Notes: generated by a model from the letters alone, not told the origin. 64,000 bases of DNA from Marinirhabdus gelatinilytica (GCF_003353425.1 NZ_QRAO01000005.1:62001-126000); one strand, 5' to 3'. Positions 22,952 through 29,551 are shown, counted from the first letter of the stretch. A program made the numbers and translations.

Positions 22952-25492
22952 TTACGTTTTAATAGTCTCTTTCCTGTTCCTGTACAGCGAGGTGTCCACA
23001 CAACCGGCCATAGCCTTGGTATCCAGCTCTAGCCCGATAAACTCTTGGACTTTTTGGGCCATCTCTTCTGGCTTTTCGAGCACGTCTTTATAATCTATAT
23101 AGATAAGTTCTACGCCGGGTTCAGCTTCTTTCCAAACATTGATCTGTTCCAGTTGTTCATAATAGGCATTATATAAACTCACAGGAATAGTATCTGGATC
23201 TTTACCTGTCATAACCCGCTGGCTCTTTACAACTTCATCCAGGTCACGTTTCATAAAAATTATCTTGTAGCGGTTTTCTGGACTTAAGTGTTTTAGGAGC
23301 GGAGCAACAATTTTTAATGTTTTGTTGTTAGCAGAAGTCAACCAAGAGTTATCTCTATGAAGAGACATAACAGGTTCATATTCATAGTATCCCTTGGGAT
23401 TTGATTTATCTGCTTTTCTCTTTCCATCTGTCAAGATATCCATTCCGGCCTTATCCATCATCTGCATCATCAATGATGTTCCTGAGCGAGGTAATCCAGA
23501 GACAACTACTATTTGATCTTCTTTATAGGCATTAAGTGTCTTTTCGTTTAAGTTTAAAGGTTCACTTAATTTTTCTTCAATTTTTTCAAGTGCTCTCTCT
23601 GCGCGGTGAAAGCGTTTTGGTTTTAATTTTTTTGCTGTCTCATAAGCAATTTTAGCATTTTCAAGATCTCCCATTTTTTCTAATGCTTCACCAAGGGTAT
23701 AATGAGCTTCAGGGAAATACTTCACTAATTCGATACTGGTGAGGGCATATTCTGCAGCTTCTTCATATTCGTTCAGTCGCAATAAAACTTCTGCCATGGC
23801 ACGATTGTATTTAGCTCTATCTGGCTCTATCTCGATTGCGGTTGCATAGTTTTCTTTCGCTTTTTCGAATTGACTATTTCTTCTGTGAAGTTTACCTATC
23901 TGAAAGAAAATTTCTGCCGAAGGACGGGTTTTCTTAACCTTGTTGAGAAGCGCGAGAGCCTTTTCAATCTCACCTTTTGCTACGAGGATATGTGCTTCAG
24001 CAAAATGTGTTGTAAAGTCGAATTCTTTATCTTTTTCTCTCAAAAGTTTTAGATATTCTTCAGCTTTGTCAAATTCTTCGGTCTTAAGGCTTATCGCAAG
24101 TAAATCCATATAAAATGGGATTGTATTTACAGGCTCTTTTTCTTTTATGAGCTGCAATAATATGTCTCTAGCCTTGTCATAATCCTTTTTCCCCAAATGA
24201 ACTCTAGCAAGATTGTGTTTTATATCACATCCCACTTTTAGCATTGCTGTCTCAATCTTTTCATCAGGACGGTCAATATAGCCTAGTTCCACCAATTGCT
24301 CCATAGTTTCCTGTTCGGAAATGGAGTCTACTTTAGCATTTTTATCAATCTCTCCAAAATCTCCTTCGACCTTTTCCCAACTTTCTATATAAGTAGGATC
24401 AGTTGGTTCCTTAAATATATCCAGCGCAACTTTACCATCCATATCCTTTCCAATAGGCAAATCGAAGTGATTGAGGACCGTAGGTGCTATATCTATTAAA
24501 CCAAGCCCGAAGATCTTTTCATTCTTTTTAATATTAGGTCCTTTTGCTACAAAGACCCCAAACTGCCTGTGATCCAAGGATGGGGCTGCTGGATACTTTG
24601 GCATTTTAATAATTCGTTTGTTCCCTGACTCAAACCCGTGGTCTGAAAGTATCATTACCGTTGTGTCGTCGTCTATTAACTGCAACTTTCTGCCCAGCAT
24701 CATGTCTTGGAACCTATACGCTCCCACTACAGCGTCTTTATAAAGTTCATACCTTTCTTGTGCTATCGCTCCTAACTTTGGCGGGTGATATTTCATAAAA
24801 GCATGGCACATGTGGTCTATTAAATCGTAATATATTGCCATAAAGTCCCACTCAGTAGAGTGCATAAGATTTGTCGCTGCGTTATGGACAGACACATTCT
24901 CTGCAAGTATTTTAGAAAATGTTGAAAGACTCCCTTCCTTTTCTTGATCTATTTTTGTGGCATTGGGAAAAAAAGGTAAGATATGCTCCCCTGTAACCTC
25001 ATAGGGTCTCATTCTCAGGTCGGCCATATCCATTGCGATTGATTCTGGATGGATAGTGCCTTTGTAAATAGGATTTTTTTTCTTGGGGTCTTTATTCATC
25101 TTTTGAAACCTATCCGAAACAACAACCCCATTAATAGGTTCTGCTGGAAAGCTTGGCCACCAACCAACAACATTGCTCTTATAGCCTTTATTGTGTAATA
25201 TGTTCCAAATCGCCCTTGCCTTTCTAGAGGATGTAGTAACAGGTCTTACCCCGTTTAGATCTTGTGCAATTTCAATAAAATTTAAAACTCCGTGCTTATC
25301 GGGGGTTTTTCCAGTTGCTACGGTTGACCATAGCATAGGGCTCAATGGTGGGTTCATAGTACTTAAGTTACCATACACACCCTCGCCTATAATTTTTTTT
25401 AAGTTTGGCATTTGCCCTTTTGCAAGTAACGGACCTATAATTTTCCAATCTGCTGCATCCCAACCAATTAAAAGTAATTTATTCTTCTTCAT
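22952..25492 (-). CDS. Phosphodiesterase/nucleotide pyrophosphatase-like, TPR and sulfotransferase fusion protein
   Basis: An 846-residue three-part protein. Residues 1 to about 360 are an alkaline-phosphatase-superfamily domain of the type I phosphodiesterase kind: LLIGWDAADW (first metal Asp), NPPLSPMLWSTVATGKTP (nucleophile region) and ILSDHGFESG (metal Asp284-His285). Residues about 390-640 are tetratricopeptide repeats. Residues about 660-846 are a sulfotransferase-like domain with the PAPS loop VVSGLPRSGTSLMMQMM (around 668) and FMKRDLDEVVKSQ. No signal peptide is visible, so it is probably cytoplasmic. The substrate is unknown. It starts inside a 48-codon gene, with a 14-base overlap. 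Confidence 0.85.
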   Translation of the reverse strand: MKKNKLLLIGWDAADWKIIGPLLAKGQMPNLKKIIGEGVYGNLSTMNPPLSPMLWSTVATGKTPDKHGVLNFIEIAQDLNGVRPVTTSSRKARAIWNILHNKGYKSNVVGWWPSFPAEPINGVVVSDRFQKMNKDPKKKNPIYKGTIHPESIAMDMADLRMRPYEVTGEHILPFFPNATKIDQEKEGSLSTFSKILAENVSVHNAATNLMHSTEWDFMAIYYDLIDHMCHAFMKYHPPKLGAIAQERYELYKDAVVGAYRFQDMMLGRKLQLIDDDTTVMILSDHGFESGNKRIIKMPKYPAAPSLDHRQFGVFVAKGPNIKKNEKIFGLGLIDIAPTVLNHFDLPIGKDMDGKVALDIFKEPTDPTYIESWEKVEGDFGEIDKNAKVDSISEQETMEQLVELGYIDRPDEKIETAMLKVGCDIKHNLARVHLGKKDYDKARDILLQLIKEKEPVNTIPFYMDLLAISLKTEEFDKAEEYLKLLREKDKEFDFTTHFAEAHILVAKGEIEKALALLNKVKKTRPSAEIFFQIGKLHRRNSQFEKAKENYATAIEIEPDRAKYNRAMAEVLLRLNEYEEAAEYALTSIELVKYFPEAHYTLGEALEKMGDLENAKIAYETAKKLKPKRFHRAERALEKIEEKLSEPLNLNEKTLNAYKEDQIVVVSGLPRSGTSLMMQMMDKAGMDILTDGKRKADKSNPKGYYEYEPVMSLHRDNSWLTSANNKTLKIVAPLLKHLSPENRYKIIFMKRDLDEVVKSQRVMTGKDPDTIPVSLYNAYYEQLEQINVWKEAEPGVELIYIDYKDVLEKPEEMAQKVQEFIGLELDTKAMAGCVDTSLYRNRKETIKT

Positions 25493-25625
25493 TTAATAAT
25501 TCTGTTTGTCCTGATTCTATTTTAATTTGTCTCCATTTTCTAAAAGCTATATCGCCATAGGCTAATACCCCAAGAGAACCACTTGGTGATATGGTATGCG
25601 TTTGTTTCGACTTTTCCTTATTCAT
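25479..25625 (-). CDS. Small 48-residue protein overlapping the phosphodiesterase-TPR-sulfotransferase gene
   Basis: From the ATG at 25623-25625 the frame reads MNKEKSKQTHTISPSGSLGV, continues with LAYGDIAFRKWRQIK, and ends with ELLNEEE and a TAA at 25479-25481. Its last 14 bases overlap the start of the large downstream gene, which is a strong sign of translational coupling. The protein has a basic start, a Gly/Leu/Ala-rich middle and an amphipathic helix with FRKWRQIK. I do not recognise the family with confidence. Coupling suggests it works with, or sets the dose of, the fusion protein. Confidence 0.65.
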   Translation of the reverse strand: MNKEKSKQTHTISPSGSLGVLAYGDIAFRKWRQIKIESGQTELLNEEE

Positions 25626-25641
25626 TATTTAAATTAATTTG

Positions 25642-25659
25642 TATATTGTGAGCAATATA
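25642..25659. promoter_or_regulatory. Perfect palindrome between divergent genes
   Basis: TATATTG and CAATATA flank TGAG, a perfect 7-bp inverted repeat. It lies between the small overlapping gene (minus) and the T9SS protein gene (plus), where a dimeric regulator could control both. No regulator is known for it. Confidence 0.4.
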
Positions 25660-25673
25660 AGAAAATAGATATC

Positions 25674-25681
25674 TAATTTTG
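25674..25681 (+). promoter_or_regulatory. Promoter -7 element of the T9SS protein gene
   Basis: TAATTTTG fits TAnnTTTG, 19 bases before the ATG at 25701. A TTG occurs inside the neighbouring palindrome with a spacing of 25, slightly long for a -33 element. Confidence 0.5.
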
Positions 25682-25700
25682 TTTAATTAAACTAAGAAAA

Positions 25701-26510
25701 ATGAAAAAAACTACATCTCAAAACTTATCTAAAAAGCTCGCGAAATATGGTGCGCTTTCTTTAGCAATTGCTGGTGTTTCAAACGCTGCTGGACAAGTTG
25801 TATACACTGACATTGATCCAGACGAAACAATTGACGATACCAACTTTGAAGTTGATATGAACGCAGACGGAACTGTAGATTTTACCATCCATAACGAAGG
25901 TGCTGGAGGTTTGGCTGTTCGTATATATAACGATCAATCAAACTCTGTATTGGGACAAAACTTTGGAGGTAACTACAACTATCCCACTGTATTGAATGAG
26001 GGAGACTCCATTGGTCCAGGTAATTCTTTTACGATGCACCCTAACTATCAAACCCTAAATTGGAACAGTTGCGCTTATACCAATAGCCAATGGTGTGGAG
26101 GACAAGTAGACAAATATGTTGGTCTTCGATTCAATGTTGGTGGAAATCAACATTACGGATGGATTCAACTTGACGTTCCTGCAGATGCTAGTACTTTTAC
26201 AATAAAAGGTTTTGCATTTGACGCTACTCCCGATACTGAAATTGCTGCTGGAGATCAAGGAACTCTAGGGGTTGACGACAACTTGTTCGCTAACTTTAAC
26301 TACTTTGTAAACAATGGCCAATTAAACCTTGTTGCTGCTACAGCGATGGAGAATATCTCTATCTACAGCATCACAGGACAACAAGTAGCCAACAAAGCAC
26401 TTAGCGGTACTAACGAGCTGGTAGATATCGCTACGCTTACAAGCGGTGTGTATCTTGCTAACGTAACGATCGAGGGTACTAAAAAGACCATCAAATTTGT
26501 GAAGAAGTAA
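25701..26510 (+). CDS. Secreted protein with T9SS C-terminal sorting domain
   Basis: A 269-residue exported protein. The N-terminus MKKTTSQNLSKKLAKYGALS continues with LAIAGVSNAAGQ, a signal peptide with a longer basic start than usual. The mature part has an Asp-rich TDIDPDETIDD and FEVDMNADGTVDF stretch that may bind calcium, and a beta-rich middle. The last ~75 residues (SIYSITGQQV, LTSGVYLANVTIEGTKKTIKFVKK) are a type A sorting domain that directs export through the type IX system and release or anchoring at the surface. Function is unknown. It ends at a strong terminator. Confidence 0.88.
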   Translation: MKKTTSQNLSKKLAKYGALSLAIAGVSNAAGQVVYTDIDPDETIDDTNFEVDMNADGTVDFTIHNEGAGGLAVRIYNDQSNSVLGQNFGGNYNYPTVLNEGDSIGPGNSFTMHPNYQTLNWNSCAYTNSQWCGGQVDKYVGLRFNVGGNQHYGWIQLDVPADASTFTIKGFAFDATPDTEIAAGDQGTLGVDDNLFANFNYFVNNGQLNLVAATAMENISIYSITGQQVANKALSGTNELVDIATLTSGVYLANVTIEGTKKTIKFVKK

Positions 26511-27758: not shown

Positions 27759-29417
27759 TTATTTACGCACTACAATTTTTTTGGTAATAGCATTGCTGTC
27801 GTCCTGGTTTACCAAATGAAGGAAATAAACTCCGTCTGCCAGATTCTCTACCGAAATAGTATTACTGGTATTGTGCAGCGTACCTTGCTGCATCTGCTTC
27901 CCCACCACGTCGTATAGGCCGTAGGTGAGATTAGGATATTTTGAATTCATCACCGTAATCAAGCTGCTCACGGGATTTGGGTAAATTTGTAGGTCGCCTA
28001 TAAATTCATTTTCGGGGATGCTCAGGATATTCGAAAGGGTCTCGATTTGGGTTTGTCCAGTTTGCTGAGGATCCAACCAGTCCTTTAAGCGCTGCGATTC
28101 ACTGTTACCAGCATCCCAAGAAACCGCAAACCTGCCATAAATATCGAATTCGCCATTATTGGAAGTACCATCGCAGAACGATTGCCCTCCGTATAGCTGA
28201 CCGATGATATATCCATTTTCATTAAAAAGTGGAGAGCCTGAAGAACCACTCTCGGTAGTTCCCAATTCCCAACCGTTTCCTGTCCCTGCGCTACCACCAC
28301 CAATTAACCATACCTCTACGCCTTGGGCATTTTCTTTTACGGCTCCAGAATTGTCGCGACATATCTTCATAATATCCCCATTGGGATGGTGTATCCCCAC
28401 TCCAAATCCTGGATTGGTATCGGTATTGTCCCATCCTGCAAAGGCTACATCCCAAGAATCTGGAATGCCATTGTAGAATTCTACCAAGGCAAAATCTGAA
28501 AGCGGGTTATTGGCCTTTACCTCTGCACCGCTTAGTGTAAAATTGTTCTCTACCCCCATAGTTTCTTCGCCTGTCCCACAAATGGGTGCGGGACTTATCC
28601 AGTTGAACCTAGCCGACCACAAATCGGTATTACTGTTGTCAAGACAATGGTTTGCTGTGAGCAGGTAGGGGGTTTTATCACGCTCTACATTGTTCAGCAA
28701 TACTGAAGAACACAAATAGCCATTGCCTAGATTAAGGAGTGCCACTGCTTTTTTAACTGTATTTTTAATGCCGTCGAAATCCTGGCCCACTTCACAATTA
28801 ACATCGTAGTTACATTCACCTGCATCGTTAAGGTCTCGGTTCCCATACACGAGTTGTGATACCTGGCCCATTCTATAGCCATGGATAATGCTTTCGATTT
28901 CTAATTTAAAATCGGAAGCAGTGGTTACTGGCTCGAAATACTCTATCCAAATTTCATCTCCTTCCAAGAACCAGGTTCCAGCACGTTGGTTACTTCTGTT
29001 GTGCAAGTGTGTATATACGGTAGAAACATCGCTATTGGCACCGTTGTACAATTGTAATCTTGAACCCACCGGAAGAACAAATTTGCTGAAATTTACACTC
29101 AAGTTTACCGCCCCTTGGGAGGTAAAGGCAATGCGCCATATTTTATCGCCGTTGTCCAATACCACAAGCTCACCCCTATCCTTGATATTTACTGATATTC
29201 CCTGTTCAATCCCGTAGCGCCACGGGAGTGATTTATTAAAATCGTTGATACTATCTTCTTGAGCAATACGGGAAAAATCTATGGGAGGGAGCACAATGGG
29301 CTTAAAGTTGGTATCCACATCTCTGGTCCAACTAGTGGGGAGTTCTGTCCCTCCTACTTGTGCAAGCAGCGAAAACGCACTTAAAAACATGCAAAAAAAG
29401 AGTAACAGTTGTTTCAT
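27759..29417 (-). CDS. Trypsin-like serine protease with T9SS sorting domain
   Basis: A 552-residue secreted protease. The ATG at 29417 gives MKQLLLFFCMFLSAFSLLAQ, a Sec signal peptide; an earlier in-frame start lacks one. The catalytic triad is readable: His in LLTANHCLDN, Asp in LSDFALVEF and Ser in GSSGSPLFNENG, in the style of lysyl endopeptidase. A prodomain of about 200 residues precedes it. The last ~80 residues (YPNPVSSLITV, YGLYDVVGKQM, VYFLHLVNQDDSNAITKKIVV) are the T9SS type A signal. It probably degrades extracellular protein. Specificity is not determined. Confidence 0.9.
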   Translation of the reverse strand: MKQLLLFFCMFLSAFSLLAQVGGTELPTSWTRDVDTNFKPIVLPPIDFSRIAQEDSINDFNKSLPWRYGIEQGISVNIKDRGELVVLDNGDKIWRIAFTSQGAVNLSVNFSKFVLPVGSRLQLYNGANSDVSTVYTHLHNRSNQRAGTWFLEGDEIWIEYFEPVTTASDFKLEIESIIHGYRMGQVSQLVYGNRDLNDAGECNYDVNCEVGQDFDGIKNTVKKAVALLNLGNGYLCSSVLLNNVERDKTPYLLTANHCLDNSNTDLWSARFNWISPAPICGTGEETMGVENNFTLSGAEVKANNPLSDFALVEFYNGIPDSWDVAFAGWDNTDTNPGFGVGIHHPNGDIMKICRDNSGAVKENAQGVEVWLIGGGSAGTGNGWELGTTESGSSGSPLFNENGYIIGQLYGGQSFCDGTSNNGEFDIYGRFAVSWDAGNSESQRLKDWLDPQQTGQTQIETLSNILSIPENEFIGDLQIYPNPVSSLITVMNSKYPNLTYGLYDVVGKQMQQGTLHNTSNTISVENLADGVYFLHLVNQDDSNAITKKIVVRK

Positions 29418-29551
29418 ATAATGGCTAGATGTATAAAAACCAAACCAATATACTGTAATTTTTCGACTCCTAAAAGAGAAAAAGCCCCAAAACCCCAAAT
29501 ACGGATCAGAATAAGCATTACATCCTGAAACTACTCTTAAAAATCAAGAAA

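Follow-up and report, generated by a model that had tools for sequence, protein, structure and literature searches.

Protein sulfation is usually regarded as a eukaryotic modification. Metazoan TPSTs are membrane enzymes of the Golgi lumen, and their better substrates carry Asp beside the Tyr (PMC9372746). As of 2019, RaxX was the only documented case of bacterial tyrosine sulfation (PMC6637879). In the RaxST/RaxX system of Xanthomonas, a PAPS sulfotransferase with a TPST-like fold is co-encoded with a secreted protein and draws on core PAPS synthesis. RaxST has been described without alkaline phosphatase (AP) or TPR domains and with no microprotein, and RaxX, made as a 60-aa precursor, has a double-glycine leader and type I export.

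The window, which is the whole stretch of 64,000 nucleotides analysed here from Marinirhabdus gelatinilytica (GCF_003353425.1, NZ_QRAO01000005.1:62001-126000), holds a locus that resembles RaxST/RaxX in the co-encoded PAPS sulfotransferase and secreted protein, the core PAPS synthesis and the TPST-like fold. It cannot be placed within RaxX/RaxST, since the conserved neighbourhood lacks an ABC exporter and the secreted partner has a Sec-like leader and a T9SS tail. The locus consists of a fusion enzyme, a microprotein gene and a divergent partner gene, whose features are collected in Table 1. The original prediction had correctly placed the enzyme at 22952-25492 and its PRSGTS loop at aa 668-673, and its view of the protein as a metal-dependent phosphohydrolase of the AP superfamily that TPRs connect to a PAPS-type sulfotransferase is upheld. 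The microprotein and the secreted partner had been missed.

Table 1. Features of the cassette in the window, and APS kinase genes beside the cassette in two other loci
Feature	Position	Strand	Basis or remark
Fusion enzyme, 846 aa	22952..25492	(-)	ATG-start ORF; AP-superfamily phosphohydrolase / TPR / PAPS sulfotransferase
AP-superfamily domain, aa 1-385	24338..25492	(-)	PF01663, E 1.2e-27; fold
TPR superhelix, aa 413-643	23564..24256	(-)	Pfam TPR; helices in model
Compact sulfotransferase domain, aa 656-842	22967..23527	(-)	PF13469/PF00685; model; fold
5'-phosphosulfate-binding loop GLPRSGTS, aa 666-673	23474..23497	(-)	GxPR[ST]GTS in 83/83
3'-phosphate-binding motif R749...S757 (RDLDEVVKS)	23222..23248	(-)	R and S in 83/83
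Microprotein gene, 48 aa (MNKEKSKQTHTISPSGSLGVLAYGDIAFRKWRQIKIESGQTELLNEEE)	25479..25625	(-)	3' end overlaps enzyme start by 14 bp
75-bp intergenic region	25626..25700	(.)	Between the divergent microprotein-enzyme operon and partner gene
Partner, secreted 'YGW'-domain protein, 269 aa	25701..26510	(+)	C-terminal T9SS type A sorting domain
Special leader, partner aa 1-32 (MKKTTSQNLSKKLAKYGALSLAIAGVSNAAGQ)	25701..25796	(+)	Tyr16 codon 25746-25748
APS kinase genes adjoining cassette	L078:9253-9804; L085:12532-13137		Opposite sides, unrelated lineages

Pfam assigned the enzyme to PF01663 Phosphodiest (aa 6-308, E 1.2e-27), to TPRs (about aa 417-643) and, at aa 662-842, to both Sulfotransfer_3 (PF13469, E 5e-12) and Sulfotransfer_1 (PF00685, E 2.5e-9), all above the curated cut-offs. 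The AlphaFold model of the whole chain had a mean pLDDT of 87.9 and a pTM of 0.76. No signal peptide was apparent, and the first beta strand of the AP domain begins at residue 5.

Seven residues of the AP domain were invariant in 84/84 aligned enzymes. Judging by family motifs, D12, D226, H230, D284, H285 and H308 would be the metal ligands and S51 the nucleophile, which is the full set of two-metal-site ligands plus nucleophile of the AP superfamily (PF01663). The fold matched ENPP1/3/7, Xac NPP and PafA at Z of about 27, and a profile search against PDB at E 1e-5 yielded no convincing sequence relative. The domain is like the NPP/ENPP enzymes (the 'Type I phosphodiesterase' of PF01663) in its fold, six metal ligands and nucleophile site, and the fusion enzyme is unlike them in having a probable Ser nucleophile, no signal peptide and fused TPR and sulfotransferase domains. 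The NPP nucleophile is Thr followed by a conserved Asn, and in a motif alignment S51 presumably stands at the position of this Thr; the domain probably belongs to COG3379. The AP domain is probably a functional hydrolase or transferase of phosphoesters, or less likely of sulfoesters. The TPRs were the most variable part of the enzyme in the 84-enzyme alignment, and Foldseek matched them to the TPR domains of O-GlcNAc transferase and to SPY. In O-GlcNAc transferase, too, a TPR superhelix precedes a C-terminal transferase; the transferase chemistry is different there, and the fusion enzyme has the AP domain in addition.

The sulfotransferase domain was modelled alone with a pLDDT of 92.1 and a pTM of 0.89. 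By published criteria (PMC6637879), the 5' motif of a sulfotransferase includes a basic residue, the 3' motif includes a Ser, and His or Glu acts as the base between the two. Among the 83 enzymes with an intact C-terminus, out of the 84 aligned, the basic residue of the 5' loop (R669), the 3' Ser with an Arg eight residues earlier (R749/S757) and a Glu between the two motifs (E704) were each conserved in 83/83, and E704 may be the catalytic base. HMMER aligned R749/S757 with the Arg/Ser pair, likewise eight residues apart, of SULT1D1 and SULT1A1, so the 3'-phosphate site on which the prediction of a PAPS enzyme hung is present on comparison. The Foldseek and VIA matches were mostly sulfotransferases, with a best Z of 13.7; TPST1/2 led (Z 13.0-13.7, against 12.5 and lower for other sulfotransferases), a slight lead given that rows within 1 count as tied. 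Their top two rows (Z 13.7 and 13.4) superposed at 3.3 A over 168-169 residues with 17% identity. The fusion enzyme differs from TPST1/2 in having no signal peptide and a much shorter sulfotransferase domain. We consider it quite likely that the enzyme uses PAPS. A stand-alone version of the sulfotransferase domain also occurs (L169).

The same three-domain order, with full-length coverage, was found in 80 public loci, and the fusion was present in 20/249 Flavobacteriaceae genomes; it is thus common among relatives, as the original prediction needed it to be, and no assembly artefact. Its occurrence is patchy. The 80 loci span Bacteroidota and two giant sulfur bacteria, and include Flavobacteriaceae, Chitinophagales, Marinifilum, a Chlorobiota bin, a Thiotrichaceae bin and Candidatus Halobeggiatoa. 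The fusion was further found in 1/398 Pseudomonadota genomes and in 2/392 genomes of a phylum sample that is rich in Flavobacteriaceae. In an enzyme tree built by a quick method, the enzyme of the source genome (3.29 Mb, 24 contigs) clustered with those of Flavobacteriaceae, and the two Thiotrichaceae rows paired up inside the Bacteroidota rows with support of 99 and 89, which suggests lateral transfer. Two loci on contigs titled Rokubacteria (L057) and Algicola (L041) fell inside the Flavobacteriaceae and are probably mis-binned or misnamed. In L109 (9980-11998), the enzyme frame ends at 673 aa, before the sulfotransferase domain, and the match runs on to 12583; a frameshift, a sequencing error or a decaying copy are possible readings. 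Carriage of the enzyme on plasmids was considered and dropped, as the listed matches were haloarchaeal AP proteins with 24-28% identity and no record covered 80% of the query. In the open-licence literature we found no paper uniting the AP superfamily, TPR and sulfotransferase, or sulfotransferase and type IX secretion; COG3379 was named in one unrelated paper and PFE-CTERM in none.

In 82 of 84 distinct loci (the 80 public ones, the window, L005, L006 and G742), the microprotein gene immediately precedes the enzyme gene on the same strand, usually overlapping the enzyme start, and in the remaining two (L093, L101) the microprotein forms an N-terminal extension of the enzyme. A pattern search detected it in 73 of 86 entries, some loci being entered twice, and the other 13 were read by eye from ORFs. 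Members are mostly about 45-100 codons long and follow the consensus [VI]PxEGSLGLLALGxxGLxAWRKxR, in which full or near invariance is limited to hydrophobics, Gly, Arg and a single Trp; Ser, Thr and Tyr are invariant at no position. With a profile of the family, E <= 1e-8 was reached by all 20 fusion-positive Flavobacteriaceae genomes and by 0/229 fusion-negative ones, where the best score was 6.6e-4 and came from partial matches in long frames. Members scanned singly against Pfam and NCBIfam reached the cut-off of no family, and comparison with PDB sequences gave no convincing relative. They weakly resemble CTERM anchors (PFE-CTERM, best E 3e-4 in 7/24; PEP-CTERM, best 0.0065 in 6/24). We noted this likeness and rejected a plain CTERM tail, because the scores shown lie below the curated CTERM cut-offs. 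Compared with PEP-CTERM/exosortase proteins, then, the microprotein has a motif that looks like a CTERM tail, lacks a signal peptide and stays below those cut-offs where seen. On sequence evidence, the microprotein family is undescribed and is an obligate companion of the fusion enzyme.

The partner ends in a T9SS tail (TIGR04183, E 4e-10; PF18962), outside which no family or relative was found in Pfam or NCBIfam and no convincing one in PDB; neither the microprotein family nor the YGW partner family has a Pfam or NCBIfam model. Partner relatives flank the enzyme in 70/80 loci. In most Flavobacteriaceae they are divergent and about 250 bp from the enzyme, and in most other loci they lie downstream, about 60 bp off, sometimes in tandem copies. 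A promoter consensus in the 75-bp intergenic region of the window did not rise above chance. Among the 10 loci with no adjacent partner, six (L076, L078, L085, L086, L096, L110) encode it at another place in the genome, and in each of them it bears the special leader; in L073 the contig ends at the enzyme and no adjacent partner is visible, and in L102 and L103 no partner was detected. Partner homologues occurred in 20/20 fusion-positive versus 10/229 fusion-negative Flavobacteriaceae genomes. RlmN, QueA, a polyprenyl synthetase and a sigma factor were rejected as functional partners, being syntenic only in about 14-21 flavobacterial loci against the partner's 70.

The two Thiotrichaceae loci have the enzyme and the microprotein with no leader-type partner, and the YGW proteins of one of these genomes are all of the CTERM-tailed kind. 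Halobeggiatoa (L106), the last of the 10 loci with no adjacent partner, has CTERM-tailed YGW-domain proteins. In L148 (G284, Halobeggiatoa), a genome that carries the fusion enzyme, there are three YGW-domain proteins, at least two of them tailed AELxMLNLLGLGAxGLAAFRRRR. YGW-type proteins of Pseudomonadota resemble PEP-CTERM/exosortase proteins in their CTERM tails, in genomes with an AP-TPR protein or the full fusion, whereas the Bacteroidota partners are sorted by T9SS. An apparent operon in the Pseudomonadota genome G625 (L174:7372-10794) encodes an AP-TPR protein without a sulfotransferase, a GNAT acetyltransferase and a PEP-CTERM protein that matches the YGW profile weakly (domain E 5e-4); this hints at a split-off version of the cassette and is offered as a lead only.

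The partner leader has the motif [KR][LI]xxY[GS]A, with the Tyr directly before the hydrophobic stretch in 87/87 sequences of the partner alignment. The stretch is Ala-rich and weakly hydrophobic: its maximal 10-residue Kyte-Doolittle mean was 1.89, compared to 2.45 in 45 other T9SS-tailed proteins from the same loci (Mann-Whitney P 2.6e-12; a few starts may be wrong), and the motif was present in 2/45 of these controls. Across the 12 genomes searched, full-leader matches occurred only in those carrying the fusion. In fusion-free genomes, the signal peptides of partner homologues are ordinary; the homologues of G112, G129 and G208 lack the leader motif and keep the mature QIxYTDxxPD start, and so do two extra partner copies in the fusion-positive G028. 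It follows that the leader, not the mature domain, tracks the enzyme. A search for the leader motif in the genomes of the two Thiotrichaceae, Saprospiraceae, G625 and G742 gave nothing above noise.

The mature-end Tyr (QxVYTDxxPD) was considered as an enzyme-specific sulfation site and set aside. Fusion-free genomes conserve it and some fusion loci have His or Phe in its place, which makes modification at this residue improbable; Asp follows at +2, but the Tyr is not invariant. The leader Tyr lies among basic residues, unlike the usual TPST substrates with Asp beside the Tyr (PMC9372746), and for want of this acidic neighbour we did not class the fusion enzyme as a TPST. The leader Tyr is within the signal peptide and would be lost with its removal.

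A supply of PAPS accompanies the fusion. APS kinase was present in 20/20 fusion-positive versus 94/229 fusion-negative genomes among the 249 Flavobacteriaceae (P 6e-8) and, counted by genus, in 18/18 versus 93/202 overall (P 3e-7), both P values being uncorrected for phylogeny. The fusion-free genomes that have a partner homologue served as an internal control, and 5/10 of them had the kinase. The APS kinase gene (cysC) abuts the cassette in L078, on the upstream side, and in L085, on the downstream side; these two loci are only distantly related. A check for PAPS synthesis genes had been proposed together with the original prediction; the source genome has APS kinase in a cysQ-DUF2061-cysC-cysD-cysN run, where all names except cysC were read from sequence. 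This run (L113, G000:C2:531500-551400) is followed by a flippase, an aminotransferase, a WbqC-like protein and a separate sulfotransferase gene, and this is likely a sulfated-polysaccharide locus that also supplies PAPS.

The enzyme, microprotein and partner genes very probably form one functional unit. Our preferred reading, to which we give a probability of about 0.42 as a whole, is that the cassette sulfates the secreted partner under guidance of its leader before export. The microprotein, conserved at every locus, and the secreted protein, whose signal peptide is a dedicated one, point to a protein substrate, and that the partner is this substrate is suggested by its association with the enzyme. 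Having no signal peptide, the fusion enzyme would act in the cytosol. Mainly because the leader and not the mature domain tracks the enzyme, we propose that the enzyme reads the leader: the TPR superhelix would grip the unexported partner by it, in analogy to O-GlcNAc transferase, and the weak signal peptide would slow export and give time for modification. The C-terminal domain would then move sulfate from PAPS to the partner, onto Tyr, Ser or Thr or onto a group attached to it. The microprotein would be an obligatory subunit that perhaps acts as an adaptor or tethers the enzyme to the membrane, and we can only guess that the AP domain serves for editing, for phosphate removal before sulfation or for a second modification. 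The modified partner would leave via Sec and T9SS.

A bolder claim, which we hold to be doubtful, is that this is a new leader-guided maturation system, in which an enzyme-microprotein complex recognises a surface protein by its slow, specialised signal peptide, and sulfates and phospho-edits it ahead of T9SS export (in Pseudomonadota, CTERM-type export). If true, bacteria would have, next to RaxST, a second and much wider route of protein sulfation, one that combines an AP-superfamily domain for editing in the same chain with an obligate microprotein family not described so far, and a signal peptide may carry information for cytosolic modification. The cassette, spread across Bacteroidota, provides an enzyme and a candidate substrate that can both be named, together with an obligate microprotein.

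The original prediction favoured the remodelling of a glycan, lipid or second messenger, and a reading of this kind, in which both active sites act in turn on a glycan, lipid or nucleotide that bears sulfate or phosphate and the role of the YGW protein is limited to using or binding what they produce, is unlikely in our judgement. The NPPs of the AP superfamily, to which the fold matches ENPP1-7 belong, do hydrolyse nucleotides and phospholipids, and cysC of the source genome lies in a polysaccharide cluster with a separate sulfotransferase gene. Against it, no glycosyltransferase, glycan, lipid or nucleotide-messenger gene was a conserved neighbour in the 80 loci, where the microprotein and a leader-bearing secreted protein are conserved instead, and the special leader of the partner is hard to account for. 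Somewhat less probable again is a RiPP-like modification of the microprotein itself, whose short CTERM-like helix (EGSLGLLALGxxGLxAWRKxR) would be the substrate and would afterwards serve the partner as anchor, chaperone or signal. The obligate 1:1 pairing, the overlapping genes and the weak likeness to CTERM anchors would agree with this; the missing invariant Ser, Thr or Tyr acceptor does not, and the fusion to the enzyme N-terminus in L093 and L101 suits a subunit better than a consumed substrate.

PAPS/PAP housekeeping or sensing seems improbable. Here the AP domain would hydrolyse PAP or another nucleotide and the sulfotransferase-like domain would bind PAPS or PAP, regulating a secretion chaperone, as the NPP-like fold and the co-occurrence with APS kinase would allow; yet a separate cysQ-type gene stands beside cysC in the source genome, the strictly kept full PAPS site with its invariant Glu suggests catalysis, and the partner leader is left unexplained. 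That the C-terminal domain is P-loop kinase-like and does not use PAPS is very improbable, for although fold searches with it also return a sugar kinase and a guanylate kinase, these rows reach Z 11.2 versus 13.7 for the best sulfotransferase, and the invariant 3'-phosphate Arg/Ser pair and the APS kinase linkage speak against it.

Two further observations concern the surroundings and copy number of the cassette. Two genes from it, the window encodes a T9SS-sorted trypsin-like protease of 579 aa (27759-29498), and secreted proteins are found at the same place in about 9 flavobacterial loci. Neptunitalea sp. Y10 has two enzyme cassettes (L063, L111), whose enzymes are 60% and 54% identical to that of the window; each cassette has its own partner genes, one of them with three tandem partner copies.
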